DNA from: Bifidobacterium asteroides DSM 20089
GTDB taxonomy: Bacteria; Actinomycetota; Actinomycetes; Actinomycetales; Bifidobacteriaceae
Length of the DNA stretch: 64,000 bases
NCBI RefSeq assembly: GCF_002715865.1
Contig: NZ_CP017696.1
Coordinates: 310,001 to 374,000, forward strand
Reading direction: 5' to 3'
Numbering within the stretch: the first letter of the stretch is position 1; every line of letters begins with the position of its first letter. Of this stretch, positions 57,627 through 64,000 are shown in pieces. Below the pieces are notes generated by a model. The model made no database searches and was not told where the DNA came from. It was given only the letters and a program-made list of their open reading frames with translations. A program made the position numbers and the translations under genes.

Positions 57627-60600
57627 TTACTCGTGCGAAGCGTGAAGCAGTCGGTGCGTTTCCCTTCGGTGGCGGCGGGATGCCAGCACCCCGCCCATGC
57701 CCGTCATACCGGTGGCCAGAGCCAGCAGAATACCCTCCCCGCCAGCTTGGGGGAGCACGCCCAGTGGTGTGTACGTGTAGGTCAGGGACTTGTCCGTCAG
57801 GGTGCTTCCTACTCCGCCCATCGTGTAGTCGACGCTGACCTTGACCGGGCCCGGCTGATGAGCGGGCGTGGTCACGGTGACGCTGTTGCTGTTGCTGACA
57901 TGGGTCAGGTTCGTGCCGGCACTGGTGTCGAACCTGACTGCACTGATCACCGGCTGCAGGTTGAACGCCACCGGCACAGGAGCCCATTTGGTGTTGGTGG
58001 TGCCGTCGCCGAGCCGACCGTCACGGTTGCTGCCCCATGCCTTGGTGTTCCCGTCCGTGCCGATGGCCAGCGAATGATGGTCTCCGGCGGTTATTTGCAC
58101 GGCGCGCATCCAGGGTCCGGCCGCGCTGGTGGACTGCGCGGAGGAGAGCACCTTCATGGGGTAGGGATAGGGTCTGCCGCTGCCCTTGATGCCAAGCTGG
58201 CCATTATCGTTGTCTCCCCATGCGTAGGCGTTGCCGTCCTTGTCGACCGCCAGCGAATGCTCTTGTCCGGCGCTGACTTGTGTGGCTTTCAGTCCTTTGC
58301 TCGCATCGCTGGGGCTGTCGGGGTCGCGTACGCGCACCGGAACAGACGAATTACTAGAGCTGTTGTTGCCGAGCTGATGATAATAGTCGTTTAATCCCCA
58401 TGCGTAGGCGTATCCGTCGCTGCCCACGGCCAGCGAATGCCCGTATCCGGCGCTGATTTGTGCGGCTTTCAGTCCTTTGCTCGTGTCAGTGGGGCTGGCG
58501 GGGTCGCGCACGCGCACAGGAACAGACGAAGAGCTGGTGCTGTAATTGCCGAGCTTGCCGTAACTGCCATCTCCCCATGCGTAGGCGTATCCGTCGCTGC
58601 CCACGGCAAGGGAATGATTTTGTCCGGCGCTGACTTGTGTGGCTTTTAGTCCTTTGCTCGCATCGTTGGGGCTGTCGGGGTCGCGCACGCGCACCGGAAC
58701 ATACGAAGAGCTTCTGCTGTTGTTGCCGAGCTTGCCGTAACTGCCATCTCCCCAGGCGTAGGCGTATCCGTCGCTGCCTAAGGCTAGTGAGTGGTAGTCT
58801 CCAGCGCTGACTTGTATGGCTTTTAGTCCTTTGCTCGCATCGTTGGGGCTGGCGGGGTCGCGCACGCGCACCGGAACATACGAAGAGCTGGTGCTGTTGT
58901 TGCCGAGCTGGCCATAGCTGTTGTATCCCCAGGCGTACACGTATCCGTCGCTGCCCACGGCTAGCGAATAATAGTCTCCAGCGCTGACCTGCATGTAGGT
59001 GAAATCTTCTGGCAGGTCCGGATACGTCTTGCGGTCAGGTTTCTTCACCAGGACCGGAGTTGTCCTTTGAGTGGCCGTCCCGTCGCCGAGCCGACCATAG
59101 CTGTTGCTACCCCATGCGTAGGCGTTCCCGTCGCTGCCCACAGCCAAGGAAAAACCATAAGTTAAGTCGTTTGACCCGCTGATTTGGCTGAACCTGATGC
59201 CTCGGCTGGTGTCGGGCGGGGTGATGGTCGTGGCTTCGTTGCCCAGCTGGTTGCCCTTGTCGGGGCTGATGCTCCACTGGTTGTTCTGTTTGGTGGGTGT
59301 CCAGTGGGCGGTGAGGGTGAGGTCCTTGGTGACAGGCTTGCTGAAGTCGTAGGCGACTTCGCCTATGAACCATCCGTCGAACTGGTAGCCTTTTCGTTCC
59401 GGGTTGGGTGAAGGCCGTTGGACTCTGCCGTATGGGTTAGGAACTATCTGGTCTTCTGGTTCGGGGCTTCCTGCGTCTGTGTTGAAGTGGACGGTGTGGC
59501 CCGTTTCTGTTTCGGTGTCTCTGGTCAGCGGCTGGTCGACCGTGTAGTTGAGGCTTCTGGTGAAAGACCGGCCGTCCTGCCTGCCGGCGAGTGTGATGGC
59601 GGCTGGCCCCGGTTTGCGGGCGGGTATGTCCACCTGCCAGGATTCATCCTTCTCGCTGAGTTTGAGTGGCTGGCCGTCCAGGCTGGCTGATTCCAGGGTA
59701 GATGCAGTGGAGGTGTCGACTCTGGATGTTTTGCCCGGATTGCTCTGATGGTCCAGGCTCCACGTGAACATGCTGCCCTGCCTGTCCAAGGCCATAATCC
59801 TGCTGTCGGCTTCGGCGGCCTGCATGTAGTGTTGGTTCCCGTTGTCCGCGCGCATGGGCGCCTTGCCGGGCTGCCATGCCCAGACCTGGCCGTTCGTGCC
59901 GGTGATGACGGCCTGGTCGCCGTTGCCGGTAATCCGGTTGGCTCTCATGTCTTCCGGAAGGCCGACAGCTGTGAGACTGGTGGTGCTATCGGCAAGGTGC
60001 CGGGCCTGCCCGTCCGCGTCCAGGAGGAGGAATCCCTGGTCGAGGGCTTGGGCTTGGAGAATGCGAATGCCCGGGTCCTGCCTGATGCGTTCGGGCTTGG
60101 CTTTCCCGGTGTTGCTCGTCTCCCAGGTCCAGGCTTGCCCTTCCGAGTCCAGGGCGAGGATCCGGCTGTCGGAGGCTACTGCGGTGACGGCCTGCGTCTG
60201 CCCGGGCAGGCCGGTCGTGGCTTGTTCGGCGGGTTTCGGGTTCAGGTCCTTGCTACCTGTCAGACCGGTTCGGAAGGCGTGGACCTGTCCTTGCCGGTCC
60301 ACGGCCAGCAGCCGGTCATCGTTGGTGCTGATGCTGGTGAATTGGCTGTTGCTGACGGTGTCGAGGATGATGGGCGCAGGCTGTTGGCTGGTCCAGGTGT
60401 ATATGTGCTGGTCGGATCCCAAAGCGGCCTGCAATCGGCTGCCGGTTGTGGCCTGCAAGTAGTGGAATCCCTCGGGTGACTGGACGGGGAGAGGAACCTG
60501 TTTGGGTGTGCCGTCTTGCGTCCATGTGTGGATGCGGCCGTCGCCCGTCAGGCCGATAAACTGCTCTCCGGCGGCTTGGACGCTGGCGAATTGAGGTTCC

Positions 60601-61209
60601 TGCCTGTCGGGCGGCTTGATGGTCAGCCTGGTGCCGGAGGCGGGCCCATGGTCCGGGCTCAGCGTCCAGTCCGTGGTCTTCGACCATTGGGCTTTCAGGG
60701 TCGTGTCCTGCAGGACGGGGGTCCTGAAGTCGAAGGGTTGGCCGTCATGAGTCCATCCGTCGAACCGGAAGCCCTCACGTACAGGATTCTGTATCGGGGG
60801 AGTGGCGAGGGTGCCGGTCTTCACGCTCGCCTGGGTGGGTGTGCTGCCGTCGGCCGGGTCGAAGCGTACCGTGTGCGAAGGTTGATCATCCGCCTTTTTG
60901 GTTGATTTGGCCGTAGCGGAGTCTGCGCTGTCGGGTGTTTCCGTCGTCGATGACGGGGTTCCTGGGCTTGCTGTCGGACTTAACGGTGTGGTGGATTGTA
61001 TCGGTGATGGTGTGGGCGGTGGCGTGCTGGTTGCGCTGCTGGGGAGAGTGCCGGTGGTTTGCTTAGCTACGCGAGGGGTCTGACGACCCCCCCCCCCCGG
61101 TGAGTACAGGAGCGTCCGCCTGGGCGGATGCGACGCCCAGTCCTGCCAGCAGGCCCAGTAGGACGATCATCATCGCCATGATGCGACGCAGACGGGAAAC
61201 CAGATGCAT
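57627..61209 (-). CDS. Phase-variable, cell-wall-anchored RCC1 beta-propeller surface protein (copy 1; frame broken at a G12 tract)
   Basis: The gene starts at ATG 61209 (GAAGGGG ten bases ahead). A signal peptide of ~31 residues (MHLVSRLRRIMAMMIVLLGL, ending in ASAQA) is followed by G12 at 61087-61098. With 12 G the frame stops after ~14 more codons (GGGGSSDPSRS). With 11 G it runs on for 1193 residues in total. Order in the ON form: signal peptide; Thr/Ser/Pro-rich linker; Flg_new-type repeat (FRFDGWTHDGQPFDF); a degenerate 7-blade propeller; a short Ig-like domain; a second Flg_new repeat (YQFDGWFIGEVAYDF); a 7-blade RCC1 propeller (SLAVGSDGYAYAWG units of 59-61 residues); an Ig-like domain; LPQAGGEG; a hydrophobic segment; and the basic tail RRHRRETHRLLHASHE. 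LPQAG resembles a sortase signal. Adhesin function is inferred. Confidence 0.85.
58200..59150 (-). repeat. Tandem RCC1 coding repeats, 177-183 bases per unit
   Basis: Six spaced copies of a TCCCCATGCGTAGGCG-like core occur at about 58396, 58573, 58750, 58927 and 59110 (plus 58216). The spacing is 177-183 bases. Several adjacent units differ at only a few positions, far less than the corresponding units in copy 2. They encode the C-terminal propeller of copy 1. Confidence 0.8.
61087..61098 (-). repeat. Poly-G (12) homopolymer tract inside the RCC1 gene, candidate phase-variation switch
   Basis: Twelve consecutive C on the plus strand (G on the coding strand), about 37 codons after the ATG. 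Counting from ATG 61209, the downstream open frame is reached only with 11 or 14 G. Twelve gives an early TAA. The region behind it is open without stops in the downstream frame, so the break is confined to the tract. Confidence 0.85.
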
Positions 61210-61689
61210 GAAACCAAAACCCCTTCACCAAACACCAAGCGGAGCAAAAGCCGCTTGCCTATTCAAAGGTCTACTGTCGGAAAGCTGTGCTGCCTGTCAA
61301 CGCCAGCCCTGTATCGGATTGCAGGAACCGTGGCGGAAGCCAACCGTCTTCTCGACATTCCCCACTTTTCACCATACCACCGGATTAGCAAGCAACACAC
61401 ACAAGCCATGTCCGAGCGCTCGGCGGCAATGACCCCGATGATTGGACAAAGGCGGCGGCTCGCAAAATTATGAGGAGGGAGGAGGAAGAAAAAATGACCA
61501 GCGGCCAGGCTGAGTGGGGTTGTAAGCCCTATTGCCTGCTGCTCTGCCTTGTTCCGCTTTCGGAAGTGTGGTGGGGGCGCGGGAGGAGTGTCGGCTCTCT
61601 TGGGGATTGAGCCTTAAGTGGCACTGGCCTCCCTGCTCCCCCTGTTCTGGCCTGGGGCGGGGGGATTGATATGCGCCCCCGGCCTTTTC
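61210..61689. other. Intergenic region between the two RCC1 genes: promoter region of copy 1 and duplicated flank
   Basis: A 480-base gap with no supportable gene. On the minus strand a perfect TTGACA -35-like hexamer lies about 90 bases upstream of the copy 1 ATG (near 61295-61300), but a good -10 box at 17 bases is lacking. A second candidate -10 (TATGGT) is about 170 bases upstream. From 61566 to 61689 the sequence is the duplicated flank that also occurs at 57506-57626. Confidence 0.45.
61566..61689. repeat. 3'-flank copy B of the tandem duplication
   Basis: Matches 57506-57626 with scattered substitutions and small indels. Both precede the C-terminal end of an RCC1 surface protein gene. 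This defines a repeat unit of about 4.06 kb. Confidence 0.75.
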
Positions 61690-64000
61690 TTACTCGTGCG
61701 AAGCGTGCAATAGACGGTGTTGTTCCCTCCGGTGGCGGCGTGAGGCCAGCATCGCACTCATGCCGGTCATACCGGTGGCCAGGGCGAGCAGGATGCCCTC
61801 CCCTCCGGCCCGTGGGAGAACGCTTGCAGGAAGGTACGTGTATCTGAGAGAGGTGTCGGTCAAAGTCTGTCCTGCGCCGCCCATCGTGTAGTCCACGCTG
61901 ACCGTGACCGGGCCCGGCACGTGTGCAGGGGTGAGTACGGTGACGCTGTTGCTGTTGCTGACAGGAGTCAGGTGTGTGCCGGGGCTGGTATCGAACCTGG
62001 CTGCGCTGATTACCGGAGCCAGGTTAAACTCCACCAACATCGGGACATAGGCATTTTTGTTGCTGTTGTTGCCGAGTTGACCATACTTGTTGTATCCCCA
62101 CCCATATGTGTATCCATCCTTGCCGATAGCCAGGGAATGCCAGTTTCCAGCACTGACGAGAGTGCTGTCAAGGCTTAGATCGGTGTTATTTGGGGATGCA
62201 GGATTTCGCACCTTTGCTGGCTGGTTGTGGCCTCGAGAATCGTCATAATTAGTATAGCCAAGTTGGCCATAAGTGTTTCGTCCCCACGACCATGCAATTC
62301 CATTGATGTCAACGGCTAGGGAAGTGTCGTATCCCGCACTGACTTGGCTGGCTTTGAAAGGGATACTGGGATTGTCGGGATTGTATACTCGAGCTGGGGA
62401 AAGAATATCCTCATTCGTCGTATTCTGTCCGAGCTCGCCCCAATAATTCCATCCCCATGACCAGGTGTTCCCTTGGGCATCGATAGCAATGGAATGTTCA
62501 AAACCGGCGCTGATTTGAACGCTTTTTAAGTTTTTGCTTGTATCGTCGGGATTGTTCGGGTCGCGCACGCGCACAGGAACAGGATTCGCGCCATCGAAGC
62601 CGCTTGTGACATTGTTGCCAAGCTGGCCGTAACTGTTGAATCCCCAAGCCCAGGTATCCCCGTCCCTGTCAATCGCTAATGAGTGAGCTCCTCCGCCAGC
62701 TACTTTTAATGCCACCAGCCCTTTGCTTGCATCCGTAGGATGTTCTGGATCGCACACGCGTACGGGAGCACTCGAGTAGCTGCTGCTGGTGCCGTTGCCG
62801 AGCTGACCGTTCCTGTTGCGGCCCCATGCCCAGACATTACCTTCCTTGTCGATTGCCAGTGAATGCTCGCCTCCGGCGTCAACCTGTATGGCCTTCAGTC
62901 CCGTATTTACGTTGGAATGTGTAGAAGGATCACAGACACGCACGGGAACAGTTGAATAGCCGCCGCTGGTGTTGTTGCCGAGCTGGGCATATGTATTGTC
63001 TCCCCAGGCGTATACGTATCCGTCGCTGCCCAAGGCCAGTGAATGCCGGTATCCGGCGCTGACCTGTACATAGGTGAAGTCAGCCGACACGCCTGCTGGC
63101 TTTTTCACCTGGACCGGCGTGTTCTGCTGGGTGGTCATCCCGTTGCCGAGCTGGCCAGACCTGTTGTCTCCCCATGCGTACGCGTTACCGTCACTGCCTA
63201 CAGCCAAGGAAACGCTATTTTGCATGACGACAGATCCAATTGAATTACTAATTTGGTTGAATTTAACGCCGCTTGTGCTGTCTGGTGGGGTGATGGTGGT
63301 GGTTTCGTTGCCGAACTGGCTGCCCTTGTCGGGGTTTATGGTCCATGTTGTCCTGGGTTTTTTGCTGGTCCAGCGGGCGGTGAGGGTGATGTTTTTTGTG
63401 ACGGGTTTGCTGAAGTCGTAGGCGGTGTTGCCGGTGAACCATCCGTCGAACTGGTAGCCTTCGCGCGTCGGGTCTGGGTAGGGCCGCTGCACTCGCCCGT
63501 ACGGGTAGGGAACCTGTTGGGGTTGGGGCGCCTGGCTTCCTCCGGCTGTGTCGAAGCTGACCGTATATGCGGAGTTCTGTCGGATGTCTCTGGTCAGAGG
63601 CTGGTCGACCGTGTACGTAAGGCTCCTGGTGAAGGGCTGGTTGTCTTGTTTGCCGGTGATAACAATGGTGGCCTCTCCTGGCGTGTGGGCGGGCATATCC
63701 GTCTGCCAGGCATCGTTGCTCTTGTTGAGTGTCAGCGGCTGGCCGTCCATGCTGGCTGATTCAAGGATGGGTGTTGTGGTGGTGCTGAGTCTGGCTGGCT
63801 GGCCGGGCCGGCCCTGCCCGTCCAGGCTCCATGCGAACATGCTGCCTTGCCTGCTGACGGCGGTAATCCTGTCACCTGCAAGGACGGCCTGCGTGTATGT
63901 CTGGTTGCTGTTGTCCACACGGATGGGAGTTCCGGCTATCTTCCAGAACCAGACGTGGCCCTCCTTGTCGGTGATGACGGCCTGATTCTTGTCGGTGCTG
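61690..64000 (-). CDS. RCC1 beta-propeller surface protein, copy 2 (N-terminal part outside the window)
   Basis: A paralogue of the preceding gene. The frame stays open to the right edge (about 770 codons visible) and starts further right. Visible order: the end of a degenerate propeller (VITDKEGHVWFW..ITAVSRQGSMFAWS); an Ig-like domain; a Flg_new repeat (YQFDGWFTGNTAYDFSKPV); a complete 7-blade RCC1 propeller (units such as HSLAIDKEGNVWAWGRN); an Ig-like domain; an LPRAGGEG sorting motif; a hydrophobic helix; and the same RRHRRE.HRLLHASHE tail as copy 1. The blades are more divergent from each other and visibly AT-richer around 62.05-62.9 kb. Whether it has its own poly-G tract cannot be seen. 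A GTG at 63918 is internal, not the start. Confidence 0.85.
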   Translation of the reverse strand, partial: STDKNQAVITDKEGHVWFWKIAGTPIRVDNSNQTYTQAVLAGDRITAVSRQGSMFAWSLDGQGRPGQPARLSTTTTPILESASMDGQPLTLNKSNDAWQTDMPAHTPGEATIVITGKQDNQPFTRSLTYTVDQPLTRDIRQNSAYTVSFDTAGGSQAPQPQQVPYPYGRVQRPYPDPTREGYQFDGWFTGNTAYDFSKPVTKNITLTARWTSKKPRTTWTINPDKGSQFGNETTTITPPDSTSGVKFNQISNSIGSVVMQNSVSLAVGSDGNAYAWGDNRSGQLGNGMTTQQNTPVQVKKPAGVSADFTYVQVSAGYRHSLALGSDGYVYAWGDNTYAQLGNNTSGGYSTVPVRVCDPSTHSNVNTGLKAIQVDAGGEHSLAIDKEGNVWAWGRNRNGQLGNGTSSSYSSAPVRVCDPEHPTDASKGLVALKVAGGGAHSLAIDRDGDTWAWGFNSYGQLGNNVTSGFDGANPVPVRVRDPNNPDDTSKNLKSVQISAGFEHSIAIDAQGNTWSWGWNYWGELGQNTTNEDILSPARVYNPDNPSIPFKASQVSAGYDTSLAVDINGIAWSWGRNTYGQLGYTNYDDSRGHNQPAKVRNPASPNNTDLSLDSTLVSAGNWHSLAIGKDGYTYGWGYNKYGQLGNNSNKNAYVPMLVEFNLAPVISAARFDTSPGTHLTPVSNSNSVTVLTPAHVPGPVTVSVDYTMGGAGQTLTDTSLRYTYLPASVLPRAGGEGILLALATGMTGMSAMLASRRHRREQHRLLHASHE

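Follow-up and report, generated by a model that had tools for sequence, protein, structure and literature searches.

The G12 tract and its reading frames

A run of twelve C on the plus strand, which corresponds to G12 on the minus strand, is located at positions 61087-61098 of the analysed window. The window is the whole 64 kb stretch of DNA (G000:C1:310001-374000) and belongs to a genome of 2.19 Mb assembled as a single contig. The second-longest homopolymer of the window has a length of only 6, so a run of 12 exceeds what chance would give. The following features were found around the tract by inspection of the sequence, translation and Pfam analysis (window numbering, unless stated otherwise).

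61220-61225, minus strand: AAGGGG, Shine-Dalgarno-like sequence, 10 nt before the ATG
61207-61209, minus strand: start codon ATG
61123-61209, minus strand: start codon and signal peptide MHLVSRLRRIMAMMIVLLGLLAGLGVASA (cleavage point estimated); similar peptides are found at other type-A heads
61087-61098, minus strand: G12 homopolymer, the proposed switch, in phase OFF in this assembly
61063-61086, minus strand: conserved 24-nt box TCGTCAGACCCCTCGCGTAGCTAA, frozen at fourfold sites
61075-61090, minus strand: possible weak hairpin GGGGTC-GTCA-GACCCC, its 5' arm being the tract end
61067-61069, minus strand: TAG, stop of the n = 13-type OFF frame
61063-61065, minus strand: TAA, stop of the G12 OFF frame, closing the 48-aa stub
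57627-61085, minus strand: downstream frame with Thr/Ser/Pro linker, List_Bact_rpt (Flg_new) and RCC1 repeats (Pfam, translation)
57741-57755, minus strand: LPQAG sorting motif, followed by a hydrophobic stretch and an RRHRRE tail (translation)
61690-64000, minus strand: next tandem paralog, extending beyond the window, with its own tract (next line)
genome 375159-375175 (65159-65175 in window numbering), minus strand: G17 tract of the next paralog, ON

The ATG at 61209 is separated from the G12 by 37 codons, and the tract joins the signal-peptide ORF to an RCC1 frame of 1,151 codons, out of frame. According to the scripted translation, n = 12 gives a stub of 48 residues ended by TAA, close to the secreted stub of about 50 residues expected in the first-pass annotation. 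In the scripted tract-length test, translation continues into the RCC1 frame at n = 8, 11 and 14, which bears out the claim of the same annotation that the length of the tract splits the signal peptide and the mature protein between frames (G12 OFF, 11 and 14 ON). The product of 1193 residues assigned there to both ON lengths agrees with the coordinates for G11 (1,193 residues); G14 gives 1,194 instead. As in contingency loci, gain or loss of tract units shifts the reading frame.

As for the downstream protein, its mechanical ORF begins at GTG 60824. Pfam analysis identified it as a protein with RCC1 and Listeria-Bacteroides repeats, the RCC1 repeats scoring above the Pfam cut-off (PF00415, 278 bits, 7 stretches; PF25390, 347 bits). 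The fold was assigned from Pfam and a PDB sequence search, in which the best solved relatives were the eukaryotic RCC1 proteins UVR8 and HERC2. The sortase anchoring named in the first-pass annotation is supported by the presence of a sorting motif, a hydrophobic stretch and a basic tail, together with two matches of sortase PF04203 in the genome; the motif is mostly LPxAG and not LPxTG. Among the C-terminal sorting motifs of the family, LPxAG was found in 73/84, LPxTG in 8/84 and LPLCG in 1/84, with none in 2/84. The RCC1 protein would be exported and, judged from the C-terminal LPxAG, probably sorted to the cell wall, and we infer that it would be anchored at the surface and may have a role in attachment or another surface interaction.

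A tract-plus-box cassette at RCC1 gene heads

The genome set consisted of 27 genomes of the genus, one per species. A cassette of the form G(n)-TCGTCAGACCCCTCGCGTAGCTRA was found at the heads of RCC1 genes in 11 of them. Correspondingly, a search for the 25-mer GGGGTCGTCAGACCCCTCGCGTAGC, allowing 3 mismatches at most, gave 82 places in 11/27 genomes, and the reversed 25-mer pattern gave 0 places in the same search of the 27 genomes. The highest copy number of the cassette in one genome was 16, and the spacing of AAGGGG and ATG seen in the window is repeated at most other cassette heads. The genome of the window contains 36 tracts of at least 9 G, of which 8 are located at RCC1 gene heads. In one of the latter (tract 406502, cassette G000:C1:406481) the frame is truncated after 233 codons, and the copy at G024:C1:774111 leads into a truncated frame of 63 codons. 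Both are likely broken members of the family; they are counted in the 82 places and not in the heads below.

A total of 105 box-like places (up to 6 mismatches) was reduced to 86 heads after removal of 17 six-mismatch rows judged by eye to be chance and two five-mismatch rows within RCC1 repeats (G000:387047, G024:519724). One six-mismatch row (G000:388100, tract-less, ON) was retained by hand. A tract of at least 9 is present in 77/86 heads, and 76 of these 77 have a start; in the exception, G013:169613, no start is visible because of the contig end. The starts were picked by script, and two of them are weak (G013:599984, at a contig end, and G012:1125723, without a Shine-Dalgarno site). Five RCC1 paralogs in the genome of the window are tract-less and all in frame (G000:C1:379410, 388100, 621861, 1064181 and 2035912). 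Some of them have lost the OFF-frame stops, and apparently they are locked-on members.

In the ON frame, the box is read as CGT CAG ACC CCT CGC GTA GCT. All six of its fourfold sites carry one base in 97-100% of the 77 copies; among the remaining conserved fourfold sites, 4/150 reach at least 95%, with a median of 70% (Fisher 1.2e-8). Four of six box codons are rare in these genes (GTA 0.10, GCT 0.11, CGT 0.10, CCT 0.15), and the codons GTA and GCT contain the T-A-G and T-R-A of both OFF frames. Both OFF-frame stops are kept in 76/77 tract copies versus 4/9 tract-less ones. The sole freely varying base among the first 24 is position 22 (A 42 / G 34), where the change from A to G replaces Lys with Glu in the ON frame and the OFF frame still reads TAA or TGA. 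Sites 3, 9, 12 and 15 of the box are also frozen, which the stops do not require. The hairpin is one weak idea for such frozen sites: its folding compared with shuffles gave z of -1.0 for RNA and -1.5 for DNA, and 27/200 RNA and 14/200 DNA shuffles folded at least as well.

Tract lengths, frame states and competing explanations

Tract-bearing heads with a start were ON in 18/76 and OFF in 58/76 cases. All 9/9 tract-less heads were ON (Fisher 1.1e-5 for 9/9 against 18/76; 8/8 without the row retained by hand); a mismatch of frames is thus confined to heads that have a tract. The lengths over the 76 heads, any one of which may be off in its exact n within a single assembly, were 11 (13 heads), 12 (48), 13 (7), 14 (4), 15 (3) and 17 (1). 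This spread and the contrast with the tract-less paralogs speak for the switch proposed in the first-pass annotation. The three phases are unevenly represented (18/50/8, p 5.6e-9), and the ON share is not clearly under one third (p 0.088). Lengths concentrate at n = 12, a single G away from ON, more strongly than free drift would predict, and in one genome, G020, 0/16 heads are ON. The concentration could reflect a slippage equilibrium, selection for OFF during culture, gene conversion or miscalls. In G016, extra or missing bases relative to relatives were observed beside three tracts (C1:452086, C6:121078 and C6:125155), which looks like sequencing error. When G016 was left out, 17/73 heads were ON.

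Turnover of the tract was analysed in 2,850 pairs from the 76 heads. In pairs with an exact flank of at least 150 nt, n differs in 5/5 and the ON/OFF state in 4/5, which is a modest result because random head pairs already differ about 56% of the time, as calculated from the 76 lengths. With an exact flank of at least 100 nt, n differs in 15/21 pairs, and of 13 pairs with 90% identity or more across 300+300 nt, 6 differ in n and 7 agree. For example, G002:528517 (n = 11, ON) and G009:748015 (n = 12, OFF) share 294 nt of exact flank, and in the genome of the window 375155 (n = 17, ON) and 1072389 (n = 15, OFF) share 175 nt. Near-identical flanks do not bring identical tracts. The comparison of tract variation among relatives suggested in the earlier annotation was made here at the level of species and paralogs, and near-identical heads vary in both length and frame, as the repeats of contingency loci do.

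It is very probable that the G12 tract is a slippage-driven contingency switch fronting the RCC1 surface protein and that such switches are family-wide. During replication, the homopolymer would gain or lose single Gs by slipped-strand mispairing, uncorrected in the absence of MutS. Lengths of 2 mod 3 (11, 14, 17) would place the signal peptide in frame with the RCC1 beta-propeller protein, and the in-frame product would be exported and probably sorted to the cell wall via LPxAG. At other lengths, translation would end at one of two stops within about eight codons. Since most genes of this large family of tandem duplicates are headed by the same cassette, each cell would contain several independent switches, and switching within a clone is predicted to be reversible. 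As for mismatch repair, a profile search for MutS_V was negative in 27/27 genus genomes (11/14 control genomes were positive); thus, classical MutS repair cannot correct slippage in the tract. NucS, which is not known to act on indels, is present in 27/27 genus genomes.

Several other explanations of the OFF frames were considered. Long G runs are error-prone, 48/76 calls have the same n = 12, and odd bases adjoin the G016 tracts, which might mean that all the genes are really in frame (e.g., G11) and that OFF is an assembly error. This is very improbable, however: ON and OFF copies occur together in single assemblies (3/7 ON in G000, 6/11 in G024, 3/13 in G013), the lengths in the genome of the window alone span 12-17, and neither the tract nor the box nor the pair of guarded OFF-frame stops depends on n. 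That the frameshifted copies are pseudogenes being lost is hardly credible. The two truncated copies among the 82 and the 5/58 OFF genes whose downstream frame falls short of 1,000 codons, in one case where the contig stops, would fit decay, but 53/58 OFF genes keep at least 1,000 downstream codons, and dN/dS (Nei-Gojobori, 11 pairs) was 0.18-0.46 in the 7 OFF/OFF pairs and 0.28-0.49 in the others. The mature ORFs of OFF copies are mostly intact and under purifying selection, which implies that these copies are expressed often enough to be selected; a gene kept functional although OFF is also characteristic of contingency loci. Transcriptional or ribosomal slippage, which would supply a fixed full-length fraction from every G12 gene with no heritable switch, is improbable. 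The strong preference for n = 12, the possible hairpin after the tract and the plausibility of slippage on G runs would suit it; against it, near-identical heads differ in length, 18/76 are plainly in frame, and the hairpin folds only weakly better than shuffles. A -1 ribosomal frameshift was rejected as an exit from G12: it is read as n = 13, again an OFF frame, and a shift of +1 or -2 would be required.

A further alternative concerns the box and not the switch, namely, that the box is conserved only through gene conversion or recent duplication of 5' ends. The family is tandem and recombining (accessible text of PMC4449606), and the box and the bases just beyond it are alike in all copies. 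However, among three unrelated signal-peptide types (50, 21 and 5 heads) the identity of the box is 0.94-0.97 and the upstream 20 nt are 0.24-0.45 alike. Types A and B have an identity of 0.31 in the upstream flank (20-60 nt) and 0.42 in the downstream flank (48-96 nt), whereas that of the box is 0.94, and the variation inside the box spares the stops. Conversion as the sole reason is therefore rather unlikely; the box is either a portable unit or is kept alike by conversion.

Wider occurrence, orientation and known systems

A different position of the tract was found in G006, where 20 regions were inspected (20 of the first 23 tracts by coordinate). Fourteen tracts are located within the hydrophobic core of a signal peptide before a long frame, and 2/14 are ON. 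In tblastn with the window protein, 13/14 of these stretches match at 1e-44 or better, and one (L142) gave no match; a fifteenth scripted tract (L138) does not have the look of a signal peptide. In L025 of G023, the tract is also placed in the signal-peptide core. Thus, RCC1 genes carry poly-G in two placements, behind the signal peptide in asteroides-type genomes and within its hydrophobic core in G006. The whole G006 genome contains 69 tracts of at least 10 G. A T stands before most of them, and many fall within the signal-peptide cores of large secreted proteins. Tracts of at least 10 G number 12-98 in the 20 genomes with at least 10 RCC1 matches and 0-10 in the 7 genomes with 0-3, a comparison confounded by kinship.

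In seven single-contig genomes with dnaA placed, 36/36 RCC1 genes among those listed are head-on to replication; they form about 21 clusters, two of the genes are no more than 60 kb from the presumed terminus, and the baseline comes from the window only (16/31 ORFs of at least 200 aa). Higher mutation of head-on genes is disputed (accessible text of PMC10710837). In the genome of the window, 8/8 RCC1 tracts are head-on versus 13/28 others (p 0.011), and in G006 60/69 tracts are. Tract-less members are also head-on, indicating that the orientation is a property of the RCC1 family.

In the neisserial Opa system of outer-membrane proteins, each of many paralogs has its own repeat switch near the signal peptide; the repeat is a pentamer within the signal-peptide sequence. 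The RCC1 genes resemble it as a probable multigene phase-variable family with one switch per tract-bearing paralog and differ from it in the use of poly-G and in being of a Gram-positive commensal type. Within the genus, the pili bbr_0113 and bbr_1889 of Bifidobacterium breve UCC2003 and their relatives are poly-G switched and sortase-dependent, with G tracts of 8-13 in Table 1, and slippage and pilus production were shown experimentally (accessible text of PMC9187656). As at the RCC1 loci, the G tract lies between a Sec-signal ORF and the main surface ORF and OFF is determined by frame. The B. breve loci are pilus operons with at most two G-tract clusters per strain in that table, unlike the RCC1 system with up to 16 cassettes per genome and a stereotyped 3' box containing two OFF-frame stops. 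A word search of the accessible text of PMC9187656 found neither "RCC1" nor "asteroides".

RCC1 surface proteins of Bifidobacterium asteroides were described in 2012 (19 copies, PMC3447821) and those of honeybee bifidobacteria in 2015 (7-24 per genome, PMC4449606). According to the accessible text of both papers, this is the same family, with a signal, List-Bact repeat, RCC1 repeats, sorting signal and tandem clusters. The words "slippage", "homopolym", "phase vari" and "frameshift" were absent from their main texts, as far as accessible. A literature search, with most subscription journals outside its coverage, gave nothing relevant on RCC1 phase variation in Bifidobacterium or beyond, and nothing relevant was found among literature titles on phase variation in honey bee Bifidobacterium. 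The poly-G mechanism is already known in the genus; for the family scale, the cassette and the orientation, no earlier description was found.

The RCC1 expansion in honeybee bifidobacteria has long been noted and is unexplained. Tentatively, and with somewhat less than even confidence, the family can be regarded as a combinatorial surface code, in which several to 16 RCC1 proteins per genome would be switched separately, with at least two origins having different tract positions, a portable selected cassette with stops in both OFF frames, and head-on genes, an orientation that may promote slippage or recombination in them. If switching is individual in most copies, the population of one bee gut would present many combinations of surface proteins, and studies of single copies by bulk expression, antibody or knockout would be misleading. 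What phase variation does for a beneficial symbiont could be tested directly in gnotobiotic bees, and the frozen 3' box and uniform head-on orientation offer testable ideas on the construction and upkeep of such switches.

In the genome of the window, 28/36 long G tracts, up to G19, are located away from RCC1 heads; most of them fall outside convincing long genes or at their margins. Examples are those at G000:C1 26177-38855 (L039), 618233, 743837, 1134927 and 1832099. At G000:C1 288094, a signal-anchor-like ORF precedes a long frame that contains a G15 tract, and, judging by this arrangement, the tract may be another switch.
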